Source of the DNA: Tetracentron sinense
Taxonomy: Eukaryota; Streptophyta; Magnoliopsida; Trochodendrales; Trochodendraceae
Assembly (NCBI GenBank): GCA_015143295.1
Contig: CM026567.1
Span: 10,124,416 to 10,188,415 of the forward strand
Direction: 5' to 3'
Length of the DNA stretch: 64,000 nt
Made by a program: the position numbers and the translations under genes. Positions 1,692-46,177 of this stretch are shown here, piece by piece. A model generated the notes under the pieces. That model ran no database searches. It was not told where the DNA came from and worked only from the letters and a program-made list of their open reading frames with translations. Position 1 is the stretch's first letter; each line of letters begins with the position of its first letter.

Positions 1692-3552
1692 TGTGGAACC
1701 CCGAATCTTCATTTCACTAATTAGTGAATAGCGTATGAATAATGTTCAAGGTAGTTTGATAAACATGTGGGTTTATGCTAATGGAAATGTTTGGATTTAT
1801 AGTGTGCATGTGTTAATGGGTGTACATGGCCCAAAGGAGTGTGTGTTAAGCATAAAAGGGTGTTAGAATTGGATTGGAGAAGGTTCAAGTAGTATAAAAA
1901 GGCTATTTGCAGCAAAACAGGGGAGCACCAATCGCTCGGTAATAACCACCGATCAACCGGTCAGCACTGATCGCTGGGTGACAACCACCGATCGACTGGT
2001 CATTTACCGATCGCTCGGTAGTTTTTGACTGGTTAACTAATTTGTATTGCAAAAAATTTTAGAGGGGGTGTTTTCAACCGATCACTCGGTTGAATCCTAA
2101 CCACCGATCAATCAGTTGTAGGCAGATTTTCTTCATTAAGGGTTTTTGAGTCTTTAGCCACTACCCCCTTGCCTATTAAAGGCTTGGTTCGTGCCTTAGG
2201 GTTTCAAAAACCCTTAGTGCACTGTTTTGAGAGGATTTTGAGAGGAAGAAGAAGGAGGAAGCTAGGGTTTGCTCAAAGCTTGAAGAGAAGATCAAGTCTC
2301 TTCCCTCCTTTGGTGTTTTCAACCAAGAACTTAAGGTTTTCACGTGTTCCAAGCATTTGGGATCAAAGTCATTGATTTCACCAAGGTAGATACACTCTAC
2401 TACCCATCTAGTGATACTACAAGTTACCACATGATGACTCTACTCATTCTATACTATAAGTCTTGATTTTTTATGATGTGAGATGTTGTTTTTATACTTG
2501 GATGTAAACTGGTATTATTATGCACTCTATATGTTTGGTTAAATGCCTCTAAGGGTTTTTGGTGATTAAATGTGTTACTCTCATATGTCCACATGTCTCT
2601 CATGAACCGGTGTTTTCCCATCGATTTCTCAAAGTTACAAAAAGGGTTTTTGAATAAGTGACTTAAATGATGATTCTAAGAAACTCCATGATATTGTCTA
2701 AGATCGGTTCACAAGCTCTAAGGATCATGATACACTCACAAGAACTCTATGATAATGTCTAAGATCGTTTCACAAGCTCTAAGGATCACAAAAGAATTTG
2801 CTCTAAGATCTCTATGGTATTGGCTCTATGGTTTTGCTCTATGGTATTGCTCTATGTCTCTACGGATCATAATTAACTCTAAAGAACTCTATGAACTCCA
2901 AGAACTCACAAGGCTATGATTATCGCATGACTCACACGATTTTGGTTTTGGATTTCATCATATGTGTTATTTCACGGTTTCCATGCTTTGATATGTTTTG
3001 AGGATTTCATTCTCCATGATTCGCATGCTCTATGCTATTATTGCTTTACTGTTAGTAGTATGTATAAGTTGAATATTCCACGCTCAGCCGATATTTGTTA
3101 TCATCAGCAGGTGCCTGGGTTCCTTTCGATTTGTGCGGTATGGAGCCTTGGGTAGAGGAAGAGTATTACGACCCGGAGTCTTCTATGGACCACTACCGGG
3201 ATGATGGCCCGCTAGTTAGGCGTCGTGACTTTGATTTTTGTTGACAGACTCAGAAAGACTTGATATTGTGCTAAGTGAGAGTGGGACTTGTCCACTTCAC
3301 ATTTTGGATACATATACATGTGTATTTTGTTGGTTCATACTTGGACCGAGAAATAGGAGTTTTTAGTTATGTTTTGGCTTCCGCTATGTTAGTTATATTT
3401 TGCTTCCGCTATGTGTTTAAATCGTTTCCGCTATGTATGTCTGTGTACTCTAACAGGTTTCTATGTGTGCCTTATGTATCATATGGGAGGTATGATACGG
3501 CGGTCACGAGTCAAAGTATCCCTAACTCGTAGGGGTATTTTGGGTCATAATA
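1692..3552 (+). repeat. Element B 5' LTR
   Basis: The LTR is 1861 bp, begins TGTGGAACCCC and ends CATAATA, where the 3' LTR has CGCGACA; every difference in that heptamer is a C-to-T or G-to-A transition. U3 carries a cluster of ACCGATCG-type palindromes (about 1926-2115), then a weak TATA (TATTAAA, 2174-2180), a transcribed leader with a donor-like CACCAAG|GTAGAT near 2386, a degenerate hairpin near 3069-3089, and the short PWVEEEY frame (3098-3244). Confidence 0.9.
3098..3244 (+). CDS. LTR short reading frame, element B 5' LTR (PWVEEEY family)
   Basis: The open stretch is 48 codons in the frame shared by all related LTRs here, with core CGMEPWVEEEYYDPE. The ATG of other families is TTA here, while the acceptor-like CAG|GT next to it is kept (ATCAGCAG|GTGCC). 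It therefore has no start codon of its own and would be read only as a spliced exon, or it is a relic. Function unknown. Confidence 0.3.
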   Translation, partial: LSSAGAWVPFDLCGMEPWVEEEYYDPESSMDHYRDDGPLVRRRDFDFC

Positions 3553-3556
3553 GACT

Positions 3557-3568
3557 TGGTATCAGAGC
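3557..3568 (+). promoter_or_regulatory. Primer binding site of element B
   Basis: TGGTATCAGAGC lies 4 nt after the 5' LTR and matches the complement of the 3' end of plant initiator tRNA-Met, the usual minus-strand primer for Ty3 chromoviruses. Confidence 0.9.
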
Positions 3569-3916
3569 TCTAGGAATCGGTTTCCCTTAGGCTAAGCGAA
3601 AGTGAGTACTCTGAGTTGAACTTAGAACTCAGATGGACTTGTGTGTAGGCTTGCTACCATGAAATAACCGATATCAAGCGAATCCTTAGGCTGGTCTAGG
3701 GTCCTAGTTTAGATGTCAGTTTAGACTACGTCTGTAGTCTTATTCCAAGAGGGTAGATACCCAACCCAAGGATCTTAGCTATGCTAGAAAACTCTAAGTG
3801 ATAACTGTATTATTATGTGTATACTTTGAGGCATACTATATGCAGGTATTAGCACTTCATGATAATTGAATTGCTATATGTTGTGTGAGGATTGGTATCC
3901 AAGTTAGACTCATATT

Positions 3917-5174
3917 TTGCCATTGTTCTCAGGATTTGACATCATTAAACGCGGCAATCGGGGTCTTGGTTACCATACTCAGAGATCCGAGGGTGAGGTT
4001 CTAAGAGAGGAGAAGCCGCTTCACGTCACGAATGCTATAGATTGCATAGCAGAGACTTTGGCTTTACTGGTAGCCAGACCTACTATGGCTACTCCTACCC
4101 CACCGACTACTCCTGTGCATCCGCCGGTGCATCACACCGCGGGGCTTGAAGTTTTTCGGAGACTACGGCCTCCTACATTCTATGGTACTCTGGACCCAAT
4201 GGTGGCAGAGGCATGGATTATGCAGTTGGAGAAGACCTTTCGGGCTCTCCGATGCACTGAGGAACAACAGGCTGAATGGGCTTCCTTCATGATGGAAGGT
4301 AAAGCCGAACATTAGTGGAGAGCTGCCCAAAGGCAGAGGGATGTTGCGAAGGCAGGGGAACCTTGGACTTGGGCGGAGTTCCTAGACACCTTCCGTGAGC
4401 AGTATTTTCCTAGATTTATCCAAGAACAGAAGGCAAAGGAATTTATACTTTTAGAGCAGGGAGCGATGAACATGGCCGAGTACGAGGCTAAGTTCACCTA
4501 ATTGTCAAGATTTGCTCCGCATTTGGTTACGACAGAAGACCTGCGGGTCAGAAATTTTGAGATGGGATTAAAGGCATTCATCCATGATAGGGTGTCCATC
4601 CTCCAAGTAGAATCCTAGAGGGAAATAGTGGGAAAGGTGAAGATCACCGAGAAGAATGCAAAGGAGTCTATCAGGAGAAAGGATAGTGGCTTCGGGAGGA
4701 GCATGTTCCGGGGTTAGTCTAGTGGTTCGTCACAGTTCGAGAAGAGGACCAGGACTGCACCATATCATTTCTCTCAGCCGATGCCGTCTCAGAGGCCTCA
4801 TTTTGTGCCTCAGGCACCGCGCCCTAAGACGTCACAGGCTACAAGAGTTATGCCTCCGGCTTCCTCCACATCGCAGGCATTCGAGGAGTGTGCCATATGT
4901 GGTCATCGACACAAGACTGGGGATTGACAAAGGTTATCAGGTGGATGCTTCCACTGTGGTGAGGTTGGCCACGTGATTCGGGATTGCCCACACAAGCAGT
5001 CACAGACTGGGCCACAGGGAGTCTGACCTCCAGGTAGGCAGACTTTGCTTCAAGGGTCTTCATCTCAGGCCTCCAGATCCTTGCCGCTCACCCAACAGCC
5101 TCGTCAAGCTAATCAGGGCAGGGTGTTTTCTATGACCAATAGAGACGCACAGGCATCTGATGATGTTGTACAAG
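3917..5174 (+). pseudogene. Element B gag (broken)
   Basis: Alignment with element C puts the original start near 3942, where ATG has become ATT; it lies just after an acceptor-like TTGTTCTCAG (to 3932). Recognisable parts are the gag core (FRRLRPPTFYGTLDPMVAEAW), the WAEF...YFPR segment and the double zinc knuckle near 4890-4990, the first of form CX2CX3HX4 with its last Cys turned to TGA, the second intact CCHC. There are several stops, including TAG at 4315 and 4498. The exon ends at the CAAG|GTACGC donor (5174/5175). Confidence 0.82.
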
Positions 5175-5327
5175 GTACGCGCGAGTTTGATATTGTTAAA
5201 GTTCTACAGTTACCATGATGTGTTGTATATGTATATATATATATGCTAAGTGATGCTTATTGTTATGCGCATGTTAATATGTATTATGCATGTAGCAAGT
5301 TATAACTTGAGTAGCGATAATTCACAG
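5175..5327 (+). other. Intron-like segment between gag and pol of element B
   Basis: The segment is 153 bp, with donor TACAAG|GTACGC and acceptor TTCACAG|GA, phase 1 (G+GA, glycine of VVQG-SLLIN). Unspliced, the gag frame ends at TGA 14 codons in. The body is AT-rich with a (TA)n run, unlike the flanking coding sequence. Confidence 0.72.
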
Positions 5328-8756: not shown

Positions 8757-8850
8757 GTAGCTCGGTTATGCGCTAAGGACGTAGCTCGGAATGCGCTAAG
8801 GACGTAGCTCGGTTATGCACTAAGGTCGTAGCTCGGAAGGCACTAAGGAC
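8757..8850 (+). repeat. Tandem 24-25 bp array in element C U3
   Basis: There are four units of CGTAGCTCGG followed by a variable TTATGCGCTAAGGA-type tail. The array is repeated in the 3' LTR at about 16476-16570. It lies upstream of the 25-bp array and may act as a promoter or enhancer repeat. Confidence 0.75.
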
Positions 8851-9003
8851 GTACTCTGATAACGTATACGTTGTACATCCGTTGTGCAACAGACAACAGG
8901 TACGTCGTGCAGCAGACAACATGTACGTTGTACAGTACAATGGGAACGTTGTACATAAGACAACGGACAACGAGCTCAGCACTAGGCACAACACAACGCC
9001 CAA

Positions 9004-9215
9004 CTAGTAGGCACTATTCATAGCACAACGAGTTGGCACTATTCACAGCACAACGAGTTGACACTATTCACAGCACAACGAGTTGGCACTATTCACAGCA
9101 CAACGAGTTGGCGCTATTCACAGCACAACAAGTTGGCACTGTTCACAGCACAACGAGTTGGCACTATTCACAGCACAACGTGTGTGGTACTGTTCACAGC
9201 ACAACGTGTTTGGTA
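9004..9215 (+). repeat. 25-bp tandem array in element C 5' LTR
   Basis: About eight units of GTTGGCACTATTCACAGCAC plus AACGA are present, the last ones diverging to GTGTGTGGTACTG. The 3' LTR (about 16722-16910) has seven units, one fewer, so the array has changed length since insertion. It occupies the U3 position where the other families carry ACCGATCGATCGGT palindromes. Confidence 0.85.
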
Positions 9216-10621
9216 CTCGTGTTGTTGCAGAAATTTCAGTAAGGGTATTATGGTCTTTTGTCAGTTCACTCTTACCTTAAGAGTTTAACCCGAGCCTTTA
9301 GGGCTCATTCTTAACACTTAGAAAGATTGGAAAGTTAGAAAAAGGGGAGAAGGCGATTCCAAACCTAGGGTTTTTCTTTGGAAGAGAAATCAAAGGGGTT
9401 TTGAGACCCTACATTACTTCAAGCTCGGCTCTTCTCCAAGATCTCGGCTCAAGCACTCGTGGAGAGCGTTCTCCAAGCTAGGGCAGTAGCCTCACGGTCG
9501 TTTGTGGAAGGGGTTTCTTCCTCATATCTTCAAGGTCGGTACTTCTTGCTACCCTCCTAGTTATAGTTCCTCTTTTCCCCTTTATTTCTTTTGATTTTCT
9601 TTCATTTACACATGTGCAATGAGATGGATGAATGGTGAATGGTGAATGGTGAATGGTGAATGGTGAATGGAGATGGAATGGGCGATTGGATGCCAATGGT
9701 TGTGTTGTGATGATTAAAATGGAGAGGGCATTGTTCCAATAATGAACATACATGCATGATCTGAGTAAAACTCATCTAGAAAAGCATGTTGTAGGGTAAA
9801 TGAATAATGAACACACCATGTTTGATGAATAAAGTGAGCTGTAAATTAGGAAATGCATGCCTAATAAATTATGAATATTGCTAGGGCCTATGATAGTGTG
9901 TTCTTGCTTTCCCTAAATGATATGAATATTACATTGCTCAATCATTGATGTTATATGTGTTGTGAAATTACCCAAATGTCATATTTAAATTTAAATGCAA
10001 ATATGTACACGGTTCCCACGAGCACGGCATGCATGACATGATTTATCGAGGTTTTCAAGAACATGGTTAGATGTGGGACATATCCTACGATATGTTTTAC
10101 CTCGCTTTTCACAAGAAGACAAGAACCAACATTCCACGAGGGGTCTCCCCTCACTCACAAGTGCATATCATGAAGAAGGGCCTCCCTTCCCTCGCAAGTA
10201 CATACATATCATGAAGAAGGGTCTCCCTTCCCTCGCAAGTGCATTGCATAAAGAAGGGTCTCCCTTCCCTCTCAAGGCATCTCTCAAGTGCATCTCACAA
10301 GGACATCTCACAAGTGTATCTCACAAGTTACATGATCACAAGCAAGCACGCATGACATGCATGATATGACACGTATGACACGCTCGACAAGATCAAGCAA
10401 GACAAACACGACAAGCTTTCAAGTACGAAAAGATATTTCAAGTCAAGTCAAGTGCACAAGATTTCAAGGGTTTTACCGGCTTTTATGAATGCAACATGAT
10501 GAATTACATTGCTTTACTTTATTGTCATGATATGAATCATTCCTGCTTTATATGCGTGAATTATTTCCTGCTTTATGTATGCTGTCCGTATGCTATGACT
10601 GTTGGTTAGTGCTTTATACCC

Positions 10622-10642
10622 GCTGAGTATTCCATGCTCAGC
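10622..10642 (+). promoter_or_regulatory. Conserved LTR hairpin (element C 5' LTR)
   Basis: GCTGAG, nine bases, CTCAGC; the stem extends inward to 8 bp with one G-T pair around a TTCCA loop. It lies 10 nt before the ATG of the short LTR frame. Equivalents: 18295-18315, 22513-22533, 3069-3089 (weak), 26671-26691 (weak), and on the minus strand 31150-31170, 38835-38855, 44321-44341 and 61985-62005. Element D LTRs have a different stem at the same place (GAGTAAC-TT-GTTACTC, near 33843 and 46645). Confidence 0.7.
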
Positions 10643-10652
10643 CGTGCTTCTT

Positions 10653-10772
10653 ATGTCGGCAGGTTCTGAGGGAGCTGCTGCTCCATTTGATGTTTGTGCT
10701 CCTGGTCCATGGGTGGAAGAGGAGTACGTCGAGGAGCCTTTGGAGGAACCTCCTGTAGAGGGTTATCTGTAG
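10653..10772 (+). CDS. LTR-encoded short ORF, 39 aa (element C 5' LTR)
   Basis: The frame runs from ATG (MSAG) to TAG. It is acidic and proline-rich, with core APGPWVEEEYVEEP and tail EEPPVEGYL. No known domain is recognised and there is no signal peptide or membrane segment. The same frame is present in eleven LTR copies of five families in this window, and the PWVEEEY codons differ mainly at third positions. An acceptor-like GGCAG|GT overlaps codons 3-4, so it may instead be the second exon of a spliced LTR transcript (donor at 9534/9535). Function unknown; whether it is translated is not shown. Confidence 0.45.
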   Translation: MSAGSEGAAAPFDVCAPGPWVEEEYVEEPLEEPPVEGYL

Positions 10773-11081
10773 GTGGTGTTGGATTCTGAGTGGATTAGCT
10801 GTGGGTGAGATGAGAGTTAGATTTATGTATTTTGGCGGGCATGTCCGCGCTTTCTTATGGATTCCTTTTTGTGTAAAACTTGGATTTAAGTATGTATATA
10901 CATAGAGGTTTGTTAGTCTTCCGCTGTGCTATGTTAGAGTATGTTTCCGCTGTTTATATCCTCTATTGTATATGCTCTGTGGGTTTTTGTAGGTTGGTTT
11001 GTCAAGCAAGTCATGTAATCCATGATTAGTCGTCCAAAGTTCACTCTAACTCCTAGGGTGGGTTTTGGGTCGCGACAGAAG

Positions 11082-11093
11082 TGGTATCAAAGC
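11082..11093 (+). promoter_or_regulatory. Primer binding site of element C
   Basis: TGGTATCAAAGC starts 5 nt after the LTR. It matches the initiator tRNA-Met type site except for A instead of G at the ninth base. Confidence 0.88.
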
Positions 11094-11438
11094 TTAGGCT
11101 TTAGGTCTCTAGGGTCACTTAGAATCTTATATCACGGCTTGACAAGAGCATATGTTAGGAAACAAGTTAGGAAGAAAGTAAGTCGGAAGAGAGTCTTGAT
11201 TCCAAGCGTAAGACTAAACTTTAGTCTTAGTCTAAAATGGTTGCTTTAACCAAGTACGGTCCTAGGTACGCTAGAACACTAAAGTATAAGTATAATGTGA
11301 TGAATACTCTGATGACTTGATGTGATGTATATTAGTATTATACAACTAATACAAATTGAATTATTGTGAAATGGCATTGGAATAAATTGCGGTTTCAAGT
11401 GAGACTCATGTGGTGCTATTGTTCTCAGGACTTTAGTC

Positions 11439-12803
11439 ATGAGGCGGGGCACACGGGGTCGTGGACCACACACCAGAGCTTCCTCTTCTTCACGGGATGA
11501 GGATGAGTAGCCGGACCTCTCTCAGGTCTTAGGCTCTATTGCTGAGACACTCGCCATACTGGCGGCTCGGCAGACTATACCATCATCGGCGGCACCTACT
11601 CCACCGCCCGCAGCTCCAGTACATCGTACCACTGGAGTTGAGGCATTCAGGAGATTGAGGCCTCCACCCTTCCATGGGAGTGTGGACCCTCTTGCTGTGG
11701 AGGCATGGATCCTCCAGATGGAGAAGATCTTTGCGGTCCTCTCGCCTACAGAGGAAGATAGAGTAGCATGGGCAGTTTTCATGCTAGAAGGTGAAGCCCA
11801 CCATTGGTGGTTGTCTGTATTGAGGACGCGAGATTTGACCATGCAAGGTCAACCTTGGACTTGGGAGGAGTTCAAAGATACTTTTTACAAGAAGTATTTT
11901 CCGATTGGAGCACGGGAAAAGAAAGAGAGAGAATTCATCAACCTTGAGCAAGGTTCGATGTCTGTGGCCGCTTATGAGGCCAAGTTCTCGGAGCTATCAC
12001 GCTTCGCGACACATATGATTGCCACTGAGGCAATGAAGGCGAGGAGGTTTGAGCAAGGGCTCAAGGATGTCATCATGGAGAAGGTATCAGTCTTTAGGCA
12101 CGCCACTTACGCTGAAGTGGTGGATAAAGCCTTGTTGGTTGAGACCAACTCTGAGGCGGTGTCCAAGAAGAGGGAAATGACGAGAGGCCAATCCAGTAGT
12201 TCAGCACCTCTAGAGAGGCGGGCTCGTACCGGCCCTTATCAGTATGCGTGGCCAGCACCACCGATGAGGCCATCTTATGCGCCTCCAGCTCCATGGCAGT
12301 ATGTGCCTCAGGCACCGCGACCTCAGGCTCTTCTGGCCCCACGACCTGTTGCACCTCAGACGATGAGGTATGCTCCACCTCCGGCCCCTCCGACTTATAC
12401 ACATGAGGTCTGCACTTCATGCGGCCGAAGGCACCCGGCAGGAGATTGCCAAAGGGCATCGGGTGGATGCTTTCATTGTGGTCGCCAGGGCCATATGATC
12501 CGGGATTGCCCCAGTCGGCATTTACCAGGCCAGTCTCAGGGGATTGGGCCACCAGCACGCCCAGCAGGATCATATCAGGCGTCATCTCAGACTACCCGGT
12601 CTACACCTCAGTCTCGCCAGGTGAACCAGGGGCGTGTATTTGCTTTGACAGAGGGTGATGCACTTGCATCTGATGAAGTGGTACAAGGTACGCGTTTGGA
12701 GTTATTTTCGTTATTAGTGCTTATTATGTTGTGTTTTATTCCTTGTGTACATACTTGGTATGCTATATATATATACCTATGTGTATGCTCTGTTAATGCT
12801 TGA
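11439..12803 (+). CDS. Element C Gag (single premature TAG)
   Basis: Capsid/nucleocapsid polyprotein of a Ty3 element. The start ATG at 11439 follows an acceptor-like TTGTTCTCAG (to 11428). The N-terminus is MRRGTRGRG and is followed at codon 24 by TAG (11508-11510); the frame is then open to a TGA at 12801-12803. The gag core spans about 11655-12010 (WILQMEKIF, WAVFMLEGEAHHWW, YFPIGAREKKEREF). The nucleocapsid has a CX2CX3HX4C knuckle (CTSCGRRHPAGDC) followed by a classic CCHC (CFHCGRQGHMIRDC) near 12468. The predicted splice donor at 12687/12688 follows VVQG; without splicing, 38 residues of hydrophobic tail are added before the stop. Apart from codon 24 the gene looks functional. Confidence 0.88.
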
Positions 12804-12829
12804 ATTGACGTAACTAGTTAAAATTTCAG
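12688..12829 (+). other. Intron-like segment separating gag and pol of element C
   Basis: The segment is 142 bp, with donor GTACAAG|GTACGC and acceptor AAAATTTCAG|GA, phase 1. It is T-rich, with a (TA)n run near 12764-12773. Removal joins G12687 to GA12830-12831 (glycine) and fuses gag in frame to [20 protein letters not shown] of the protease. Unspliced, gag ends at 12803 and the pol frame is closed upstream by TAA at 12811. It matches the segments in elements A and B and the donor in D. It is probably a genuine spliceosomal intron retained in the genomic RNA. Confidence 0.75.
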
Positions 12830-15800
12830 GAACCCTACTAGTCAATGAGTATTTGGCTCGAGTATTGATTGATACCGGGTCTACTCATTCGTTTGTCTCG
12901 CCGAGTTTTTCAGAAGGCTTTTCTGTAGAGCCAAGTCAGCTAGAACCGGAGTTAGCCATTTCGACTCCTCTCGGCAAAACAGTATTGGCAGATAAAGTGT
13001 ATAGATATAGTGTGGTCCAAGTTGGAAGCCACGAGTTGGCGGTTGACCTCATCGTCCTTGGATTCCAAGACTTTGATGTTATATTGGGAATGGATTGGTT
13101 AGCAGCACATCATGGGCATGTAGCTTGCTTTGAGAAGATGGTACTCTTCAAGCCGGTAGAAGGAAAACTATTTCACTTTCGAGGGTTGAGAAGTAGAGAC
13201 ATTGCACGCTTTGTGGCGTTGAGCTTAACTAACCCTGAAGCAAAGGACTCATCGACTATTCCGGTTGTGAGTGAATTCCTGGATGTATTTCCAGAGGAGT
13301 TGCCAGGATTGCCTCCAGATAGGGAGATTGAGTTTGTGATCGAGCTTGCACCAGGCACAGCTCCTGTTTTCAGGGCTCCGTATAGAATGGCCCCTATTGA
13401 ACTCAAAGAGTTAAAGACCCAGTTGGAAGAATTACAAGGTCTTGGTTTCATTCGACCAAGTGTCTCACCGTGGGGTGCCCCGGTGTTGTTTGTTAAGAGG
13501 AAAGATGGCTCGATGCGGATGTGCGTCGATTACAGGCAATTGAACAAAGTCACTATAAAGAATAGGTATCCCTTGCCTAGGATTGATGACTTGTTCGATC
13601 AGTTGAAGGGAGCGAGATTTTTCTTGAAGATAGACCTTCGATCGGGTTATCACCAGTTGAAGATTAAGGTGGAAGATGTTCCCAAAACTGCTTTCAGGAC
13701 TCGGTATGGACACTACGAGTTCTTGGTGATGCCTTTTGGACTCACGAACGCGCCAGCAGCCTTTATGGATTTGATGAACCGGGTGTTCCGGCCATACCTT
13801 GATAGGTGCGTGATTGTATTTGTTGATGACATTTTGGTCTATTCCCAAACACGGGAAGATCACACACGCGACCTATGCCTTGCTTTGGAAATGCTAAGAG
13901 AGCACAAGCTATACGCCAAACTTAGCAAGTGTGAGTTTTGGTTGGAAGAGGTGGCATTCCTAGGCCACGTTGTATCAGCGAAAGGCATTTCGGTGGATCC
14001 AAAGAAGATAGAGGCAGTCATGAGTTGGGCGAGGCCCAAGAGTGTCACGGAGATACGCAGCTTTCTTGGGTTGGCAGGCTACTACAGGAGATTTGTAGAG
14101 GGTTTCTCTAGCCTTGCAGCACCGCTCACTTACCTGACAAGGAAGAACGCCAAGTTTGTATGGAGTGATAAGTGCGAAATCAGTTTCACGGAACTGAAGA
14201 AGAGGCTTACTACAGCCCCTATCCTTACTGTGCCATCTGGACCTTATGGGTATGAGGTGTATAGTGATGCCTCACATGTTGGACTTGGGTGTGTACTCAT
14301 GCAGCACAAGAAAGTCATTGCCTATGCATCGAGGCAATTGAAGGAGCATGAGAAGAATTACCCCACGCACGATTTGGAGCTTGCCGCAGTCGTGTTTGCA
14401 CTCAAGATCTGGCGACATTACTTATACGGGGTGGAATTCTATGTATATACGGACCACAAGAGCCTCAAGTACCTCTTTTCCCAAAAGGAATTGAATCTAA
14501 GGCAACGGCGTTGGATGGAATTTTTGAAGGACTATGATTGTACCATTCAATACCACCTGGGTAAAGCAAATGTAGTGGCTGATGCTTTGAGTAGAAGACC
14601 CCCGAGGTTATTAGCATGCATGTTGGTGCAAGAATGGAAGCTACTTGAAGACTTGGCAAATCTGGACATTAATGTGAATGACTCTGTTCGTAGTCCTATC
14701 TTGGCAAATGTCACGGTTCGGCCATACATTATAGGTTTGATCCAAGAATACCAAGCCACGGATGCTGAATTGTTGGCTTATCGGGACAAGAAAGTTGCTA
14801 AGGGTAGTGAGGACTTCTCTCTCACTAGTCGGGGTGCTATCACATTCAAGGGAAGGCTGTGCATCCTAGCCAATGCAGATCTTCGAAGAGAGATTTTGGA
14901 TGAAGCACACCGTTCGAAGTACACAGTGCATCCAGGGGGTACAAAGATGTACCGGAACCTCAAGAGTCACTTTTGGTGGTGGAATATGAAGAGGGAGGTT
15001 GCGGAATATGTAGCACGGTGCTTGGTGTGTCAACAGGTAAAAGCAGAACACATGCGGCCCGCAGGTCTATTACAGTCCCTTCCGATTCCCAAGTGGAAAT
15101 GGGAGAACATATCCATGGATTTCATAGTTGGCTTGCCAAAAACGGCAAAGGGCTCAGATGCGATATGGGTAGTAGTGGATCGTTTGACAAAGTCCGCTCA
15201 TTTGTTACCCTACCGTACTACCTTCAACTCTAGTCAGTTAGCCGCTTTGTACATCAAGGAAGTGGTGAGGTTACACGGAGTGCCCGTTAGTATTGTGTCA
15301 GATCAGGATCCAAGATTCACATCACGATTCTGGAAAAGCTTCCAGGAGGCTATGGGTTCCCGACTTGATTTCAGTACCGCTTTTCATCCACAGACGGATG
15401 GACAAACTGAGAGAGTGAACCAAGTCATTGAAGACATGCTTCGGGCTTGTATGTTGGATTTCAGAGGCAGTTGGGAAGAGCACTTGCCTTTGGTTGAATT
15501 CGCCTATAATAACAGCTATCAGGCGAGTATCCAAATGGCACCATTTGAGGCCTTGTATGGGCGAAGTTGTAGGTCTCCTCTCTATTGGGATGAGGTAGGA
15601 GAAAGGAAAGTACTTGGTCCGGAGTTGATTGAGCAAACTCCAAACACAGTTAAGATCATTCGGGATCGATTGAAAGCCGCTCAAGATCGCCAGAAAAGTT
15701 ATGCGGACACGCGCCGTAGGGAATTGGAATTTCAAGTAGGGGATCAAGTTTTTGTGAAAGTATCTCCTAGCAAAGGGATCACGAGATTTGGAAAGCGAGG

Positions 15801-16155
15801 CAAGCTCAGTCCTCGGTATGTTGGGCCTTTTGAGATTATCACACGAGTTGGTGAGGTTGCTTACAGGGTAGCTCTCCCACCTCACATGGCTACAGTTCAC
15901 AACGTCTTCCATGTGTCTATGCTTCGGAAGTACATTGCGGATCCTTCGCATGTCATAGACTTGGAACCGTTGGAGATTCGAGAGGACCTCACCTTGATTG
16001 AAAAGCCGGTTCAGATTTTGGATCGAAGATATCAGGTGCTTCGCAACAAGACAATCCCTTTGGTTCTTATGCAATGGCAACACCATGCTCGGGAAGAAGC
16101 TACATGGGAGCGTGAAGCCGAAGTCAAAGCAAAGTACCCAGAATTAATTGAATGA
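12830..16155 (+). CDS. Element C Pol polyprotein: PR, RT, RNase H, IN, chromodomain
   Basis: The frame is open from the acceptor to the stop, with no internal stops. Counting from the TTG codon at 12853: aspartic protease DTG at residues 7-9; RT with [12 protein letters not shown] and the catalytic FVDD (DD at about 325-326); RNase H with VYSDAS (D about 472); integrase zinc finger from H686 to C723-C726; DDE triad D756, D817, E853 (35 residues between the last two); GPY/F motif ([13 protein letters not shown]); and a C-terminal chromodomain-like tail ([13 protein letters not shown]...EEATWE). It has no in-frame ATG at its start and would be made only as a Gag-Pol fusion after splicing of 12688-12829. 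Functional apart from the upstream gag stop. Confidence 0.95.
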
Positions 16156-16260: not shown

Positions 16261-18750
16261 TGTAGAGCCCCAGACTTTTTCATGCTTAATACATGACACT
16301 TCCGTAGTCAATTTGCCTTTAAAGAGGTATAATTAATAAATAAGAAAGAAATTGGAAATTTCAAAACGTCAAAAATGTTCCTTTTCAAAGTAGGAACCCA
16401 ACGCAAGTTGAATCGTCAAAATCGGACGCACAAGTCAAAAGATATGGCCAAAACAGTCTGGACCTACAGGCAATCGTAGCTCGGTTATGCGCTAAGGACG
16501 TAGCTCGGAATACGCTAAGGACGTAGCTCGGTTATGCACTAAGGTCGTAGCTCGGAAGGCACTAAGGACGTACTCTGATAACGTATACGTTGTACATCCG
16601 TTGTGCAACAGACAACGGGTACGTCGTGCAGCAGACAACGTGTACGTTGTACAGCACAACGGGCACGTTGTACATAAGACAACGGACAACGAGCTCAGCA
16701 CTAGGCACAACACAACGCACAACGAGTTGGCACTATTCACAGCACAACGAGTTGGCACTATTCACAGCACAACGAGTTGGCACTATTCACAGCACAACGA
16801 GTTGGCGCTATTCACAGCACAACGAGTTGGCACTGTTCACAGCACAACGAGTTGGCACTATTCACAGCACAACGTGTGTGGTACTGTTCACAGCACAACG
16901 TGTTTGGTACTCGTGTTGTTGCAGAAATTTTAGTAAGGGTATTATGGTCTTTTGTCAGTTCACTCTTACCTTAAGAGTTTAACCCGAGCCTTTAGGGCTC
17001 ATTCTTGACACTTAGAAAGATTGGAAAGTTAGAAAAAGGGGAGAAGGCGATTCCAAACCTAGGGTTTTTCTTTGGAAGAGAAATCAAAGGGGTTTTGAGA
17101 CCCTAGATTACTTCAAGCTCGGCTCTTCTCCAAGATCTCCGCTCAAGCACTCGTGGAGAGCGTTCTCCAAGCTAGGGCAGTAGCCTCACGGTCGTTTGTG
17201 GAAGGGGTTTCTTCCTCATTTCATCAAGGTCGGTACTTCTTGCTACCCTCCTAGTTATAGTTCCTCTTTTCCCCTTTATTTCTTTTGATTTTCTTTCATT
17301 TACACATGTGCAATGAGATGGATGAATGGTGAATGGTGAATGGAGATGGAATGGGCGATTGGATGCCAATGGTTGTGTTGTGATGATTAAAATGGGGAGG
17401 GCATTGTTCTAATAATGAACATACATGCATGATCTGAGTAAAACCCATCTAGAAAAGCATGTTGTAGGGTAAATGAATAATGAACACACCATGTTTGATG
17501 AAATGCCAAGATGAATAAAGTGAGCTGTAAATTAGGAAATGCATGCCTAATAAATTATGAATATTGCTAGGGCCTATGATAGTGTGTTCTTGCTTTCCCT
17601 AAATGATATGAATATTACATTGCTCAATCATTGATGTTATATGTGTTGTGAAATTACCCAAATGTCATATTTAAATTTAAATGCAAGTATGTACACGGTT
17701 CCCACGAGCACGGCATGCATGACATGATTTATCGAGGTTTTCAAGAACATGGTTAGAGGTGAGACATATCCTACGATATGTTTTACCTCGCTTTTCACAA
17801 GAAGACAAGAACCAACATTCCACGAGGGGTCTCCCCTCACTCACAAGTGCATATCATGAAGAAGGGCCTCCCTTCCCTCGCAAGTACATACATATCATGA
17901 AGAAGGGTCTCCCTTCCCTCGCAAGTGCATTGCATAAAGAAGGGTCTCCCTTCCCTCTCAAGGCATCTCTCAAGTGCATCTCATAAGGACATCTCACAAG
18001 TTACATGATCACAAGCAAGCACGCATGACATGCATGACATGGCACGTATGACACGCTCGACAAGATCAAGCAAGACAAACACGACAAGCTTTCAAGTACG
18101 AAAAGATATTTCAAGTCAAGTCAAGTGCACAAGATTTCAAGGGTTTTACCAGCTTTTATGAATGCAACATGATGAATTACATTGCTTTACTTTATTATCA
18201 TGATATGAATCATTCCTGCTTTAAATGCGTGAATTGTTTCCTGCTTTATGTATGCTGTCCGTATGCTATGACTGTTGGTTAGTGCTTTGTACCCGCTGAG
18301 TATTCCATGCTCAGCCGTACTTCTTATGTCGGCAGGTTCTGAGGGAGCTGCTGCTCCATTTGATGTTTGTGCTCCTGGTCCATGGGTGGAAGAGGAGTAC
18401 GTCGAGGAGCCTTTGGAGGAACCTCCCGTAGAGGGTTATCTGTAGGTGGTGTTGGATTCTGAGTGGATTAGCTGTGGGTGAGATGAGAGTTAGATTTATG
18501 TATTTTGGCGGGCATGTCCGTGCTTTCTTATGGATTCCTTTTTGTGTAAAACTTGGATTTAAGTATGTATATACATAGACGTTTGTTAGTCTTCCGCTGT
18601 GCTATGTTAGAGTATGTTTCCACTGTTTATATCCTCTATTGTATATGCTCTGTGGGTTTTTGCAGGTTGGTTTGTCAAGCAAGTCATGTAATCCATGATT
18701 AGTCGTCCAAAGTTCACTCTAACTCCTAGGGTGGGTTTTGGGTCGCGACA
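16261..18750 (+). repeat. Element C 3' LTR
   Basis: The LTR is 2490 bp with the same start and end as the 5' copy. Differences include one fewer 25-bp unit, fewer GAATGGT units near 17325, a small ATGAAATGCCAAG insertion near 17499, and loss of about 12 bp in the CATCTCACAAG region near 17990. Confidence 0.95.
18326..18445 (+). CDS. LTR-encoded short ORF, 39 aa (element C 3' LTR)
   Basis: It encodes the same peptide as the 5' LTR copy at 10653-10772, with ATG and stop intact. The preceding hairpin is at 18295-18315. Confidence 0.42.
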   Translation: MSAGSEGAAAPFDVCAPGPWVEEEYVEEPLEEPPVEGYL

Positions 18751-22542: not shown

Positions 22543-22707
22543 TTATCATTGGCAGGTGTCCAGGTTCCTTTCAATTTGTACGGTACAGAGCCTTGGGTAG
22601 AGGAAGAGTATTACGACCCGGAGCCTTCTATGGACCACTACCGGGATGATGGCCCGCTAGTTAGGCATCATGACTTTGATTTTTGTTGCAGTCTTAGAAA
22701 GACTTGA
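22543..22707 (+). CDS. LTR short reading frame, element B 3' LTR (PWVEEEY family)
   Basis: The open stretch is 54 codons with LYGTEPWVEEEYYDPEP. It has no ATG at the conserved position (TTATCATTGGCAG|GT) but the acceptor-like CAG is retained. It is extended at its end relative to the 5' LTR copy because TGA became TGC. Confidence 0.3.
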   Translation, partial: LSLAGVQVPFNLYGTEPWVEEEYYDPEPSMDHYRDDGPLVRHHDFDFCCSLRKT

Positions 22708-24879: not shown

Positions 24880-27113
24880 TGTAATGCCCCGGAACTTTTC
24901 GCACCTAATGAACAGTGTTCTCATAACCAATTGGCCTTTCACGTAGTCTAATTAATAAATAAAGAAGAATTTGAAAATTCTAAAATACCAGAAATGTTCT
25001 CCTTTGAATGACGAATCCAATGCAAGTTGAACCTTCAAAATCCGATGAGCGAGTCAAAAGTTATGACCGAAACAGTAAAATGGATTCAGTGTCAAAATAT
25101 GCAGAACAACAATCATTTGGTCCAAATTAGCGATCGGTCGGTCCACAACTGATCAATCGGTATCTATCAACTGGTCCAAAAATTTGTATAGAGAAATTTT
25201 CCAGAGAGGGTGTTTTTAACCGATCATTCGGTCAAAAACACCAATTGCTTGGTGGGAGACCAATCGCTCGGTCATAACCACCGATTACTCGATCCTTCGC
25301 GTTTTGCAGAAATTTCATTAAGGGTTTTTTCATCTTTTGGGCATTCTACCCTTGCCTATAAAGGCTTACTCGAGCCATAAGGGTTCATAAATCCTAAGGC
25401 ATCATATTTTGAGAGAGAGTGAGAGAGGAGAAAAGGGTTTTCTCCTAGGGTTTCAACTTGAAAGAATCAAAGGTTTAAAAACCCTAGATCATCACAAACC
25501 TTGGATTTCTTCAAGCCCAAGCCTCAAGCTCATGTGGAGTTCTTTTCCAAGCTAGGGCAGCATCTCCCACGGCATTCACAAGGATTTTCCTCTTTTTGTT
25601 TTCAAGGTTAGTACACCCTACTAACTCCCTTAGCAATAACCTAGGTTTTTCCCCTCGAAAATGATGATTCTTGATCTTGTGTTCTTATTTTCTTTGAAAT
25701 GTACCATCTTCCCTAAATATAAATAAGATAAATAAAGGTGTGGAATGTATGGATGGATGTAGATGAGGCAATTGGATGCCATGTTGTGGTGATGAATGTG
25801 TGTTGGAAAAATGGTGGATGGGCATTTCAAGCATAATGAATAAACTTTATGTGGTGTGATGAAATATATGCACTAAGAAATTGAAATGAAATGACTATGA
25901 ATGTGTTGCACGCCATGTGTTTGATAAAAGACCTAAATGAGAATTAAATGGATTTAATGAAGAACATGAAAGTATGATCTATGTAGTTTTCTTAAAATGG
26001 TAAATTATCTAATGTTATGTATGCTAGTCTAAATTTTCATATGATTATGTTAGGAAATGAAATGCTACACTCATGTGATCCTTTCAGTGAAGCATGTCAT
26101 CATATTTACTACAAATGTTACACACACGCACACATGCATACATGAATCGGTTTTTCTAAAGTATATGGACACAAGAAATAACAAGAACAAGAATGTGATT
26201 CACGAAACGAATGATAAAGCTAGACATCGGACTAGTCAAGGATAGGGCATATCCCTAGGATATGTCATAGGGATATCGCAAGATATGTCATACCTAGCTC
26301 ACAAGAAAACAAGACAAAGAGGTTGGTGTACCCTTTTCTATATATATATATATATTTTGTTGAAGGGAATTTACATTCCTGGCTCACAATTCGCTTCAAA
26401 GGCACTAACCTCTGGCTTACAAGTATACAAGCAAGTCAAGTCAAGATCGTGACAAGAACAAGCAAGACAAGTGATTCCAAGCAACACAAGACAAACATGT
26501 GTGATTCTCACAAACAAGACCAAGACAAGAAACAAGTTTTCAAACATGACAAACAAGTTTTGAAAGAAACACGACAAGCTATTTTTAAGAATAAGACATG
26601 ATTTTTAAAGCACGAGTTTTACCGGAGTTTTGTGATTGTTATTGCTATGGTTAGCTAGTAGCTTGTACTCGTTGAGTATTTCATACTTAGTCGTACTTTT
26701 ATGTCAGCAGGCACATGGGTCCCTTTCGATATTTGTGCCCTGGGTCCTTAGGTTGAGAAGGACTACGGCGTGGAAGAACCATATGAGGATTCGGTAGTTA
26801 AGCCTCATGCTGAGGCGAGGGACTTAGACCATTGGCCCCACGGGGGTAATTATTAGTGAGATAGAGTTGTATTATGTCTTTTGTATTTTGGTAGGTGGGC
26901 ATGTCCACCTTTGACTTGATATGTTATGTGTATAAACTTAGAATACTGGTTTGAGTTATAGAAGAAAAGAAAAAGTTGGTTCACGCTTCCGCACTCGATT
27001 TATTATTGTTATTATATCATGTTAGCCTTGTTCATTACAGGATGGTTTGACAGGTACGAATAGTCACCTCTAAAGTATCCCTTAACTCGTAGGGGGTATT
27101 TTGGGGCCTAACA
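24880..27113 (+). repeat. Element A 3' LTR
   Basis: The LTR is 2234 bp, TGTAATGCCCCGG...GGGGCCTAACA, preceded by a PPT (24867-24879). It contains the conserved U3 block (about 25008-25070), GATCGGTCGGT/CAATCGG motifs (25128-25292), TATAAAG (25357-25363), the leader with AAGCTAGGGCAG (25550-25561), a donor-like TTTTCAAG|GTTAGT near 25607, a weak hairpin (26671-26691), and the short frame (26701-26856). The partner 5' LTR is missing. Confidence 0.88.
26701..26856 (+). pseudogene. LTR-encoded short ORF, element A 3' LTR (one stop)
   Basis: ATG (MSAG) is present; it runs TWVPFDICALGP, then TAG where other families have TGG (W), then VEKDYGVEEP on to a stop at 26856. It is a decayed PWVEEEY-family frame. 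Confidence 0.4.
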
Positions 27114-30999: not shown

Positions 31000-31140
31000 T
31001 CAACAGTAGTCGAGGTACGGCCACACGTCGAGGTCTCGGTCCGCTTGAGACTGCAGTGGGATAGATGGTTCTCTCTCCTCGATATACTCTTCCTCGACCC
31101 AAGGCTCTAGGTCGAGGGCTCCCTCAGTACCTGCCGACAT
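31000..31140 (-). CDS. LTR-encoded short ORF, 46 aa (solo LTR E1)
   Basis: It runs from ATG (MSAG) to TGA, with TEGALDLEPWVEEEYIEE and C-terminus WPYLDYC. It is intact and in the same frame and position as in the other LTRs; the acceptor-like GGCAG|GT overlaps codons 3-4. Confidence 0.42.
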   Translation of the reverse strand: MSAGTEGALDLEPWVEEEYIEEREPSIPLQSQADRDLDVWPYLDYC

Positions 31141-31831: not shown

Positions 31832-34308
31832 TGTTGTTATATGCATATGCAATTGAAATCGTGGTTCATGCTAACATGCGTGCTCGTGTATGTGTCAATA
31901 GTGACCATCGTGGAATGAGGATAGCAAGAGAGATATGGCATCATAATTCGATTCATCATATAAGCATAGGAGCACTTAAGAAATTTGCACATTACTTGAT
32001 CACATTACTTGATCAATTCATCATTCATAAGAGTACATGCATGAGGCCTATTTCCATTTTCTTCATTCAAGTCATTATTTCATAGTTTAGGTATTTTGTC
32101 AAATACTTAGCATGCAAGTTTCCTCATTGTTCATTTTCTCATTTTTAGTGCATATTTTACATTCAATCACACAATGTAAGTTTATTATTTGCGTAATGCC
32201 CATCCTCCATTTTCCAATCCACAACCCACACATACCATACATCACCCATTCGGCATCCAATCGCCACATCCAACATCCATCCAAGCATCCATACCATTTC
32301 TTTATCTTGTTTATATTTATTAGGGATGATACATTTCACAAGAAAGCAAACATAATAGCATAAATCACATTTCATAAAGAAAACTTAGATTTATTGCTAG
32401 GGTAAGTTAGTAGGGTTTACTAACCTTGAAGAAGAGAAGAAAACCCTTGAAAAACGCTGTGGAGAACGCTGCCCTAGCTTGAAATGGGACTCCACACGTG
32501 CTTGAGGTTGGATTTGAGAGATCCAAGCTTCTGAGATGGTCATGGATTCCAAAACCCCTTGATTTTCTCAAGTTGATGCCCTAGGGTAAAAACCCCTTCT
32601 CTCCTCTCTCACTCCCTCTCAAAATATGGCTAAGGGTGTTTATGAACACCCTTGGCTCGAGCCAACCCTTAAAAATAAGGGTGGAGTGGCCAAAAGGCCA
32701 AAAAACCCCTAAAAAAATTTCTGAAAATCGCGTAGGACCAATAGATGACCGATCTACCGGTAGTGGACCGATCGATTGGTGCTTATGACTGATCTACCGG
32801 TAGTGGACCGATCGATTGGTGCTTATGACCGATCTACCGGTAGTGGACCGATCTCTCGGTCTTGACTGGTGCTGCAGAACGCACTTCAGTATTTTGACCA
32901 TAACTTTTGACTCGGTGCTCCAATTTTGACGATTCAACTTGCTTTGGATTCGTATTTCGAAGAGGAACAAATTTTATGTTTTGAAAAAATTATAATTCTT
33001 CTTTATTCATGGACAAAAATTCCCCTAAAGCTGACTGGTCTGCAATGGGTTACAACAGCCCAAATTTACAGCCGACCCGATTTTGAAAATCCCACTTTTG
33101 ACTCAATCCCGACTCAAAATTAGAAAAAGTGATCAACATGAACCTTGAAGAGGGTTCTAATGGATTTCCAAAAATTCAGTAATCACTCAATTCTGAGCAA
33201 CGATGACTAAACTAGAGCCTTTTAAAGTTGAGGTAAATGCCGAAACATACCTTTTCGACACCTAGAATACCTCGAGTGTTTTCACACTCTTTTCCCCTTG
33301 TGTCCAACACCCTACTCACACCTCATAAATCATTCTTCATAAGTCTTTAACCCACCTCAATGATCATTAAATTCACACCGACATGCATAAGAGGCTCCGG
33401 CCTCTCTATGCCTCATGCACTAGCACTATTCACCAACAACCCATTGAAACACTTAGGGTATTTGTACCCTTGATTTCACCTACTTAGAGTATCTTTACAC
33501 TCTCTTTTTACGACTCAAACCATGTACCTAAAACCCTCAATTGACTAATCATAATATCAAGAACACAATGGGAGGCCTTAGACAAGGGCACCTTTCACTG
33601 GCACTATTCATAGTATAGTGAACTTGAATTTCCGGGGTTCTACAAGAAGAAAAGTAAGAAAAAAAAGTAAGAAATGAAGAAAAAACAAGATAAGTAAGAA
33701 AAATAAATACAAGTGAGCACTTAAAAGAATTGAAAAAAAAAATGTTTCTGCACTCTGATTTATGTATGTGAATTGTAATTGAATTGCTACTTGTATGCAT
33801 GTTGTCGTTATGATATTTCTTATTATGGATTGTTATATATGCGGAGTAACTTGTTACTCAGCCGATGACTTTTGTTTTTGGTAGGTTCGAGATTTGAAAA
33901 TTGTGCTGAGGATCCTTGAGTTGAAGAGGAGTACGTAAGGAAGATCTTGCAAGTAATCATCACGAAGAGGAACGGGATTTTGAGAGACAGTTTTACTATT
34001 ATTTTAGTTTATTAGAAATTTTCTGAATTTCAGAGAGATTGTAACCAGTTTATTATATTTCAATTTTAATTTGGGATATTTAAATTTGATACGATTAATT
34101 AAAGAGTTGAGAATCACGAGGATGATTCAGATTATGTAGGTTCAGTTTAATTACAAATTTTAATTGATGTTCAGTTGAAGTATTTAATGAAGAAATTTTT
34201 AAGTTCAGATTTTGGTATGCCTTTAAAGCTTATTAAATGGATTAAATCAAGTAAGTCACGTGTCAAAGTTCAACATTCTCCTAGGGGGATCTTGGGGCGT
34301 GATAGAAG

Positions 34309-38684: not shown

Positions 38685-38825
38685 TCAACAGTAGTCGAGG
38701 TATGGCCACGCATCGAGGTCTCGGTCCGCCTGAGACTGTAATGGGATAGCCGACTCTCTCTCCTCTGTATACTCTTCCTCGACCCAAGGCTCCGGGTCGA
38801 GGGCTCCCTCAGTACCTGCCAACAT
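38685..38825 (-). CDS. LTR-encoded short ORF, 46 aa (solo LTR E2)
   Basis: It runs from ATG (MLAG) to TGA, with TEGALDPEPWVEEEYTEE and C-terminus WPYLDYC. Intact. Confidence 0.42.
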   Translation of the reverse strand: MLAGTEGALDPEPWVEEEYTEERESAIPLQSQADRDLDAWPYLDYC

Positions 38826-43887: not shown

Positions 43888-46177
43888 TGTAACGCCCCGA
43901 AATACCCCTAGGAGTTTAGGGATATTTTAGCTGTCACACTGCGTACCTATCAAACCATCCTGTAATGCACAAGATAAAATACAATACTAACAACGATAAT
44001 CAGAGCGCGGAAGCTATCATATATGCGGAAGCGTAAACAAATTTTCATTTCTTCTGATGATCCAAAATAGTATTCCAAGTTAACATAAATACAAGACATG
44101 TCTAAGTCTAAGGTGGATAGGCCCACCTATCAAAATATCAAAATACACAAGACCCTCTCATACTCTCCCCTCAACAGTAGTCGAGGTATGGCCACGCATC
44201 GAGGTTTCGGTCCGCCTGAGACTGTAATGGAATAGCCGGCTCTCTCTCCTCTATATACTCTTCCTCGACCCAAGGCTCCGGGTCGAGGGCTCCCTCAGTA
44301 CCTGCCGACATGAAAGTACGGCTGAGCATGGAATACTCAGTGAGTACAAGCTACTAGCAGACCATAACAATAATAAAACACACAATAGTAATATCATACA
44401 AGCAGTAATAGAAACATCACAAAGAAACAGTATAGGGCATGACACAATACAAGCATCCTGACGTGCGTACATGAATGCGAAAACGCCGATAAAACTCATG
44501 CTTGAAAACCCCCGTCATGTCCCGGTATGCCTCGTAGAAATCATGTATGCGTGCATGCATGAATGCATGATCATCATCTTGTAAACCTCCATCTTGTAAC
44601 TTGTGAGCCAGAGGCTAGCACCCGAATCTCCCTGGGCTGCCAACCTCCTTGACATGCAATGCACTTGTGAGCCAGAGGCTAGCACCCGAATGTCCCTGGG
44701 CTACCAACCTCCTTGTTATGAAATGCATGGTTTTCTTGTGAGCCAGAGGTTAGCACCCGAATCTCCTTAGGCTACCAACCTCCTTGTTATGCAATATTTT
44801 CTTGTTGTTTATTATATGCACATGCTCTTGAAATCTCGGTTCACGCTATCATGCGTGCTCGTGTACGTGTCCATAGTGACAATCATGATAATGAGAATAA
44901 CCAAGATATGACATTACAATTCAATTCATGATATGAACATCGGTAACATAAGTAGTCTGCATAACATTTGATCAATTTATCATTTATAAGAACGCATGCA
45001 TAAAACTCATTTCTATATCCTTCATTGAGATCATTTATTCATAGTTTAGGCATTTTGTCAAACACTTTCATACGTTATTCCTTAGTAGTTTATCTCCTTC
45101 TCTTTTAATGCATATTTTCCATTCAGTCACACAAGGGTAAGTTTGTTATTTGTACAATGCCCATCCTCCATTTTCCAATCCACAACCCACACATCATACA
45201 TCACACATTCGGCATCCAATCGCCGTATCCAACATTTCATCCACACATCCACACCTTTTCCATTATGTTGTTTATATTTAATGGGGGATAACACATTTCA
45301 TAAAAAGGAAAACATAATATAAGGAATCACATTTTTATATAGAAAACCTAGATTTTTGCTAGGGAAAGTTAGTAGAGTGTACTAACCTTGCTCAAGGCTT
45401 GATCCTTGATGGGAAACTTGATTGAAGCTCCAAAAGGGGTAGGGAACAACCCTTGCTTGAGGAAGACTCGAGTTGGGGAAGAAACCCCTTTCAAAACGTA
45501 CTTGAGATGGCTGCCCTAGCTTGGAGAGTGGCTCCCACACGAGCTTGAGCCTTGAACTTGAAGCAAATCCAAGTTTGAGGACGACCAAGGATGGTCCACC
45601 CCTTTGATTTCTTCCTCAATGGAAACCCTAGGTCAAAACCCTCTTCTTCTCACTCTCTAGCTCTCAAAATGCTAAGGGTTGTGAATGAGGGCTCAAAGGG
45701 TCGAGCAAACCCTTATGGGTAAGGGTTTAACACCCAAAAGACAAAAACGCCCTTACTGAAATTTCTGCAAAAACGCGAAGACCGAGCGATCGGTGGTTAT
45801 GACCGATCGATCGGTTGCCTACCGAGCGATCGGTGTTTATGACCGATCGACCGGTCAAAAACTCACTCTCTGGAAAATTTCCCCATACAAAATTTCTGAC
45901 CGTGCGATAGCTACCGATCGATCGGTTATGGACCGATCGATCGCTGACTGGACCGAGCGATCGGTGCTCTGTATGTCTGGACTGTTTTGACCATATCTTT
46001 TGACTCGCTCGTCGGATTTCGACGATTCAACTTGCGTTGAATCCGTCTTTCGAAAACGAACATTTCTGATGTTTCGGAATTTCCGATTTCTCCCTTATTT
46101 ATTAATTAGACTACAAAAACAGCCAATTAGCTACGAAGGTGCTATTCATTAAGGATGAAAAAGTTCGGGGTGCTACA
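43888..46177 (-). mobile_element. Solo LTR E3 (minus strand)
   Basis: The insertion is 2290 bp, minus-strand TGTAGCACCCCGAAC...GGGGCGTTACA. TSD ATCTC (43883-43887) and ATTTC (46178-46182), one mismatch. It is very close to E2 but has only three tandem units (44605, 44669, 44740). It has a palindrome cluster at 45779-45965, the U3 block at about 45978-46050 and a hairpin at 44321-44341. Confidence 0.9.
44171..44311 (-). CDS. LTR-encoded short ORF, 46 aa (solo LTR E3)
   Basis: It runs from ATG (MSAG) to TGA, with TEGALDPEPWVEEEYIEE and C-terminus WPYLDYC. Intact. Confidence 0.42.
   Translation of the reverse strand: MSAGTEGALDPEPWVEEEYIEEREPAIPLQSQADRNLDAWPYLDYC

Follow-up and report, generated by a model that had tools for sequence, protein, structure and literature searches.

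Elements and LTRs of the window

The window, by which is meant the whole 64-kb stretch of DNA analysed here, consists of plant DNA with nested Ty3/gypsy elements throughout. The element labelled C extends from an LTR at 8542-11077 to an LTR at 16261-18750, and the gag and pol genes between them are recognizable by their Pfam domains. Matches to RVP_2, RVT_1, RNase H and Integrase_H2C2 lie above the Pfam cutoffs, whereas rve, with 25.8 bits against a required 32.6, and Chromo, with 20.0 against 25.1 (E = 6e-4), fall short of theirs. Other LTRs in the window carry the labels A, B, Cm (C-like), D, E and F, and the features discussed below are collected in Table 1. Two of the E copies, E2 (38401-40883) and E3 (43888-46177), look by eye like solo LTRs; again by eye, TAATC stands on either side of E2, and GAAAT and GAGAT border E3.

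Tekay/Del chromoviruses are described, in the available part of the source, as having long LTRs (1.1-4.8 kb), the att ends TGTAACACCC and a U5 att of the GGG type (PMC4029996). The complete LTRs in the window measure 2.2-2.5 kb, within the Tekay/Del range, and taken with their att ends they fit that description. The LTRs of E2, E3 and F start with TGTAGCACCC, one base off the Tekay/Del att, and those of C and A are further off; at the other end, E1-E3 finish in GGGGCGTTACA and C in GGGTCGCGACA. In LTR length, LTR ends and protein domains, the C element resembles the chromoviruses of that source as far as its available part describes them, and the elements may be called Tekay/Del-like.

Table 1. 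Features of the window, as predicted or read from the sequence (a slash marks a splice junction)
Feature	Position	Strand	Remarks
B 5' LTR, putative leader exon 1	1829..2385	+	after last upstream ATG; ends CCAAG/GT; start is the last-ATG boundary only
B, proposed leader intron	2386..3932	+	55 ATG in 1547 nt; acceptor TTCTCAG/GA; gag ATG not intact here
B 5' LTR, tail exon	3111..3244	+	
B, predicted gag-protease intron	5175..5327	+	153 nt
C 5' LTR, putative leader exon 1	9252..9534	+	after last upstream ATG; ends CAAG/GT; start is the last-ATG boundary only
C, proposed leader intron	9535..11428	+	83 ATG in 1894 nt; acceptor TTCTCAG/GA, 10 nt before gag ATG
C 5' LTR, conserved hairpin block	10624..10644	+	just upstream of acceptor
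C 5' LTR, tail exon	10663..10772	+	predicted acceptor after 10662; core 10707-10727; stop 10770-10772
C, gag exon	11439..12687	+	ATG 11439; ends at donor VVQ/G, phase 1; early stop in this copy
C, predicted gag-protease intron	12688..12829	+	142 nt, U-rich
C, pol exon	12830..16155	+	PR-RT-RH-INT-chromodomain
C 3' LTR, tail exon	18336..18445	+	copy predicted as last exon in use
B 3' LTR, tail exon	22556..22707	+	frame extends beyond the usual stop in this copy
A LTR, tail exon	26711..26856	+	core W codon reads as stop
E1 LTR, tail exon	31000..31130	-	
D1 LTR, decayed tail exon	33885..34015	+	stop in core
E2 LTR, tail exon	38685..38815	-	
E3 LTR, tail exon	44171..44301	-	
D2 LTR, decayed core	46715..46735	+	acceptor unrecognised
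C-like (Cm) LTR, tail exon	61855..61964	-	

The PWVEEEY frame and its codons

A sequence-only reading of this DNA had singled out a short frame at 10653-10772, with the core PWVEEEY, as conserved in LTRs of several families. The translation is as that reading gave it, and the conservation is borne out within the window and far beyond it. The core is intact in 8 of the 11 window LTR copies (on the plus strand at 10707, 18380, 3146 and 22591; on the minus strand at 61920, 31104, 38789 and 44275), and its W codon is a stop in D (33914 and 46715, plus strand) and A (26746, plus strand). A degenerate pattern of the PWVEEEY codons has 19,976 matches (9978 + 9998) in the 1.161-Gb source genome, and the reversed control of the pattern has 0 matches across it. 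By chance, on an iid estimate from the base composition of the window, 5e-6 matches would be expected in the window itself and 0.09 genome-wide.

The same LTRs can be found without reference to the core, by way of a conserved hairpin block. Scanning the window for this hairpin with up to 5 substitutions, which did not reach the D copies, recovers 9 copies, 8 of them with an intact core and one, A, with its stop. Allowing at most 2 mismatches, the hairpin has 16,043 + 16,027 matches in the genome, where the control pattern has none. The LTR sequence around the frame had been described as hardly alignable between families; this does not hold, for the hairpin and a YAG just upstream of the frame are conserved, as are blocks downstream of it as far as the LTR end. 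Covariation was considered as proof of the hairpin and rejected, there being none beyond controls. By eye, CTTCCGC or a one-letter variant of it lies 3' of the frame in the A, B, C and E LTRs (in C at 10910-10960), possibly as a 3' UTR or polyadenylation element.

Variation among the copies is concentrated at third codon positions. Compared between the five families of the window, the core and one further codon show 13, 11.7 and 42.3 differences of 80 at positions 1, 2 and 3, respectively. Fitting a codon model to the 11 window copies, with a hand-set tree topology and stops treated as missing data, gave a dN/dS of 0.38 over 25 codons (LRT 11.7 against 1) and of 0.20 over the 14 codons FDxCAxx-PWVEEEY (LRT 14.7). 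The value for the core alone, 0.045, is biased because the core was noticed for its conservation.

More independent of that choice are blocks outside the search pattern, compared among window and genome copies of lineages that can be aligned without gaps. In the 7 codons that precede the core, rates of difference at positions 1, 2 and 3 are 0.17, 0.29 and 0.57 (8 lineages, p = 0.003 by column permutation); in the final 10 codons, up to the stop, they are 0.20, 0.34 and 0.49 (5 lineages, p = 0.02), and in the three codons directly after the core the third-position excess is borderline (p = 0.053). The end block takes forms such as LDRWPDLAYC and LDAWPYLDYC, of the type (L)DRWPYLDYC. A wider alignment of all non-core codons gave an omega of about 0.9, indistinguishable from neutral in a fit that converged poorly; the downstream and non-core fits had negative LRTs, meaning that they were unconverged. 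The core omega of this wider fit, 0.016, is not independent, since the loci had been chosen by the core pattern. Significant block tests and a nearly neutral non-core fit together indicate that strong selection is confined to short blocks, namely FDxCA, PWVEEEY and the C-terminal block.

The proposal that selection acts on a peptide is thus supported by the third-position excess and by dN/dS values well under 1 over the frame. Equal conservation of third positions had been set beforehand as the outcome that would speak against it, and position 3 is instead the one that varies most. Judged by its codons, the peptide is real and selected, and in this very abundant group of plant retrotransposons a part of the LTR, generally regarded as non-coding, seems to carry protein-coding sequence.

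Two readings without a selected peptide can be weighed at this point. The conserved feature might be an RNA or DNA element only, either a splice acceptor with a purine-rich exonic enhancer or a promoter site, its codon pattern being accidental. The core is indeed purine-rich (GARGARGAR) and adjoins the acceptor described below, and among its conserved neighbours are the hairpin and other non-coding blocks, but the third-position excess extends beyond the core to two further blocks, spacing varies in multiples of three, the W and Y codons are conserved, and a C-terminal block is followed by a stop, all of which make this reading very improbable. Even smaller is the chance that the frame is a relic, a coding segment shared by descent from which selection has gone. 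Such a history would suit the broken frames of A and D and the near-neutral non-core codons; it sits badly with dN/dS values well below 1 for the core and the 14-codon block, and with the number of genomic matches to intact core codons.

Database searches brought to light a few relatives. Among 1009 candidates, a profile gave a single match (E = 1.3e-3), the small protein P0002, on a public contig of 753 bases; once P0002 had been added to the profile, its close kin P0003 and P0004, likewise from short public contigs, emerged as well (E = 1.9e-13 and 1.3e-8, 31 candidates). P0002-P0004 have the core PWVEEEY or PWVEEDY and end in DQWPYP(A/G)H. At E up to 1 there was no Pfam match for P0001, P0002 or P0004, and no PDB match for profile A2. 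The viral and prokaryote collections yielded no confirmed plant LTR; L001, the one inspected of two matches there, is surrounded by DNA with a GC content of 58% that lacks the motif. A search of the open-licence literature found no mention of PWVEEEY.

Probable splice signals in the LTR and at the end of gag

The position of the frame is tied to a candidate splice acceptor. A pyrimidine-rich YAG stands upstream of the core in 39 of 41 LTR copies, the 11 of the window and 30 genome loci sampled in their order on contig C1. In 37 of the 39, the distance from this YAG to the core leaves a remainder of 2 on division by 3, although it takes five different values (23, 26, 29, 35 and 44 nt); the exceptions are L015 (28 nt) and L021 (30 nt). 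Spacing between hairpin and YAG, measurable in 36 of the 39, is 21 nt in 19 copies, 20 in 9, 23 in 6, and 27 and 28 in one copy each, a mixture of classes that leaves no single phase upstream of the YAG. Since the phase is constant downstream and not upstream, indels come in threes downstream of the YAG only.

A second sample of 30 loci was selected by exact matches to the hairpin with the core left unused, 12 of them shared by position with the first sample. Cores could be aligned in 27, of which 18 have an intact PWVEEEY and 25 have the acceptor 26, 35 or 44 nt away. The loci L084, L092 and L094 combine the exact hairpin with the lack of a PWVEEEY-type core; by eye their tails are divergent, with VPW(I/M)E.. 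or YVLEEEYGEEEP in place of PWVEEEY, and they are perhaps diverged tail subfamilies.

Start codons are conserved much less well than this phase. An ATG start had been noted for the window copies C, Cm, A and E, where it is indeed present, but genome-wide the printed frames show an upstream in-frame ATG in only 17 of 30 loci; among the 13 without it, L008, L010, L012, L016, L026, L029 and L032 retain both an intact core and an intact frame. Phase locking to the acceptor and the absence of a conserved start codon argue that this is not a free small ORF but rather a coding exon that starts at an acceptor. It is well supported, from the phase relations, that the peptide is the product of a coding exon following a 3' splice acceptor and taking one base from the preceding exon; this exon, the tail exon of Table 1, most likely begins at 10663 and not at 10653, where the frame had first been placed. 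Of the free-peptide frame as originally conceived, therefore, selection on the peptide stands, and the stand-alone ORF with its own ATG probably does not.

A stand-alone small ORF nevertheless has some points in its favour. The peptide would then be made from its own ATG (MSAG...), as a uORF or free micropeptide, on the leader or on an LTR transcript. Where the ATG exists it lies just upstream of the acceptor, and some spliced leaders might have it as their first AUG, since at least 282 nt before the LTR donor described below are free of AUG in 6 of 9 LTRs (C5, C3, E2, E3, F and B5). The loci that lack the ATG and keep the frame speak against such an ORF, as does a frame locked to the YAG and not to the hairpin, and we consider it rather unlikely.

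An acceptor that opens a coding exon calls for a donor, and a candidate lies at the end of gag. The sequence ...GTNGTNCAAG/GTACGC, or one close to it, divides a Gly codon between its first and second bases (VVQ/G, phase 1). Such a phase-1 donor is found in 15 of the 17 gag-PR regions examined, which comprise 13 from elements recognised by paired matches, L045 and L048, and C and B of the window; L056 and L065 have none. When the predicted intron is skipped, VVQ reads in frame into PR over a YAG/G acceptor in 12 of the 17 regions, or 12 of the 15 with a donor, giving VVQ followed by G(T/A/S)LL(V/I)N...VL(I/M)(D/N)TGSTHS. The expected in-frame reading was not obtained in the donor-bearing L055, L057 and L060, and other in-frame YAGs lie close to the chosen protease acceptor.

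The predicted gag-PR intron is 124-153 nt long, and its 12 credible lengths fall in all three classes mod 3. In the length set, L055, L056, L059 and L065 had no measurable intron and the acceptor of L057 was misassigned (69 nt); the in-frame reading analysis gives 124 nt for L059. Content of T is 0.43 in the intron versus 0.22 and 0.36 in its flanks, as a mean of 13 regions, one of them with a misassigned acceptor. Were the intron retained, the Gag frame would meet a stop after another 2-44 codons, which are not the same from copy to copy. The gag-pol of C contains 8 donor-like sites, 6 of which can be aligned to B or A, and the gag-end donor (12688) is the only alignable one with AG before the GT and unchanged in B.

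The gag donor and the tail acceptor agree in phase, an agreement with a one in three chance of being accidental. With modest confidence, we take it that alternative splicing yields a Gag isoform whose final coding exon is the PWVEEEY frame in the LTR. Splicing from the gag donor to the protease acceptor would give Gag-Pol, while splicing from the same donor to the acceptor in the 3' LTR would skip pol and produce a short mRNA encoding Gag with an acidic, LTR-encoded tail. Structural Gag would thereby gain a tail absent from Gag-Pol, and the choice of acceptor would set the ratio of Gag to Gag-Pol. The parts of this scheme differ in strength: the coding status and the acceptor of the tail are well supported, and the gag donor is one that we infer. 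As for what the tail might do, a role in Gag assembly or host interaction seems most likely. A genome probe in which the gag donor was joined to a C/E-type tail had 2 matches, both of them mutated LTR acceptors, and so no spliced DNA copy was seen; as a single pattern spanning two family types, the probe is a weak test.

A phase-1 acceptor would suit any phase-1 donor, and the tail might accordingly be joined not to gag but to another upstream coding exon, through a pol donor, in RT or another part, or from an unrecognised exon. A conserved GTGAGT in RT (13931) has the required phase, but it lacks a G at -1 and its conservation is explained, by eye, by the RT motif KCEFW; nor do C, A and B share a conserved donor where pol ends. 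We regard such a partner as improbable. An integrase C-terminal extension spliced from the pol end was rejected on the same inspection by eye of these three pol ends.

Further putative splice signals point to a leader intron that starts in the 5' LTR. A conserved block of the 5' LTR ends in AAG/GTTAGTA in A, E and F, CAAG/GTCGGTA in C and CCAAG/GTAGATA in B, and the acceptor TTCTCAG/GA is common to C and B just 5' of the gag start, with a near-identical one in L045 and L048. The segment from LTR donor to pre-gag acceptor is, we infer, a leader intron, whose removal would splice an AUG-free leader exon in the LTR to a point just upstream of the gag AUG. In the LTRs with shorter ATG-free stretches before the donor, these measure 72 (A), 116 (E1) and 39 nt (B3). 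Absence of ATG is by itself modest evidence, because Markov shuffles expect only 0.9-2.4 per 300 nt before the donor, and the zero counts in C and B arise by construction, the stretch being taken from the last ATG. A coding leader exon 1 was rejected, as the needed phase meets stops ahead of the junction, 0 codons away in E2, 3 in B5 and 16 in E1.

By eye, the leader donors of the LTRs (9535, 2386 and others) lie in a short inverted repeat with family-specific letters, GTTAG..CTAAC or GTAGA..TCTAC, an arrangement that could place the splice donor inside a hairpin. The E LTRs contain tandem units of about 65 or 130 nt, varying in number, within the proposed leader intron (31438-31834, 39115-39498 and 44599-44805), and the C LTRs have short tandem repeats upstream of the leader block (8983-9307 and 16702-17001).

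Relation to known elements

Spliced RNAs that yield Gag without Pol have been described for EVADE/ATCOPIA93, as shGAG, and for BARE1 and Drosophila copia (PMC12786077, PMC3735527, available parts). In BARE1 the stop comes three residues after Gag (PMC3735527, available part). Short GAG isoforms also occur in two sunflower elements, Tyran and Varan, and the available part of that source has no Tekay among the expressed sunflower elements (PMC7730604). The present elements are like the shGAG systems in that splicing is predicted at or after the gag region, from a gag-end donor whose phase is conserved and whose motif recurs in nearly all regions (15 of 17). They are unlike those Ty1/copia systems in being Ty3/gypsy elements, apparently chromoviral, and in that the proposed last exon would encode a conserved peptide of the 3' LTR.

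In Ogre, intron removal between GAG-PROT and RT joins two polyprotein ORFs, and in its available part the source names Bianca and Ogre, and not Tekay, for separated ORFs of this kind (PMC6317226). Here too, removal of the predicted intron would restore one frame across two ORFs in most donor-bearing regions (12 of 15), but unlike the PROT-RT intron of Ogre it would lie between gag and PR. The nematode element Cer1, which is Gypsy/Ty3-related (PMC3315495), makes CERV from a spliced mRNA that combines gag-frame exons with an exon in another frame (PMC10309623, available part). CERV is an accessory protein of 517 aa and its added exon is not called LTR-encoded in the available part of the source, whereas the product proposed here is a short tail.

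Additional coding capacity in plant elements is also known in the form of aORFs and eORFs, among them the 5' aORF of Tekay, which are described in the available parts of the sources as belonging to the internal region (PMC7264820, PMC11728184). The PWVEEEY segment differs from such internal ORFs with a start of their own: it lies in the LTR and begins at a splice acceptor, an in-frame ATG being present in just over half of the loci (17 of 30). A protein encoded in an LTR is familiar from the MMTV superantigen gene; the tail resembles it in LTR coding and differs in that the superantigen belongs to an animal retrovirus and has a long ORF. For plant LTRs, no description of a coding exon was found in the available parts of the open-licence literature. 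Spliced Gag-only RNAs are already known in Copia elements, and it is the conserved tail exon inside the LTR that appears to be new.

LTRs are usually annotated as non-coding, and a coding exon conserved there, with about 20,000 intact cores in one genome, would alter the annotation of such elements. It would offer plant Ty3/gypsy elements a mechanism for balancing Gag and Gag-Pol, and would help explain the long LTRs of Del/Tekay. A bolder proposal, which we hold only tentatively and think somewhat less probable than not, is that the Tekay/Del LTR is organized as a split gene, consisting of a promoter with an AUG-free leader exon, a leader intron and a terminal exon for the Gag tail. If this is true, the leader intron would make up most of the LTR and so explain its unusual length, and Ty3/gypsy elements would have a route to extra Gag by splicing. 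Tens of thousands of LTRs, solo ones included, would carry an acceptor, a short coding exon and a polyadenylation region, and host genes could pick up such modules.

Elsewhere in the window, a truncated C-like LTR on the minus strand borders on the start of a new LTR on the plus strand, the two coming together within some 20 nt (62738-62756). Between E LTRs, at 43351-43824, lies an open frame of 157 codons that by eye resembles the gag of Ty1/copia elements.
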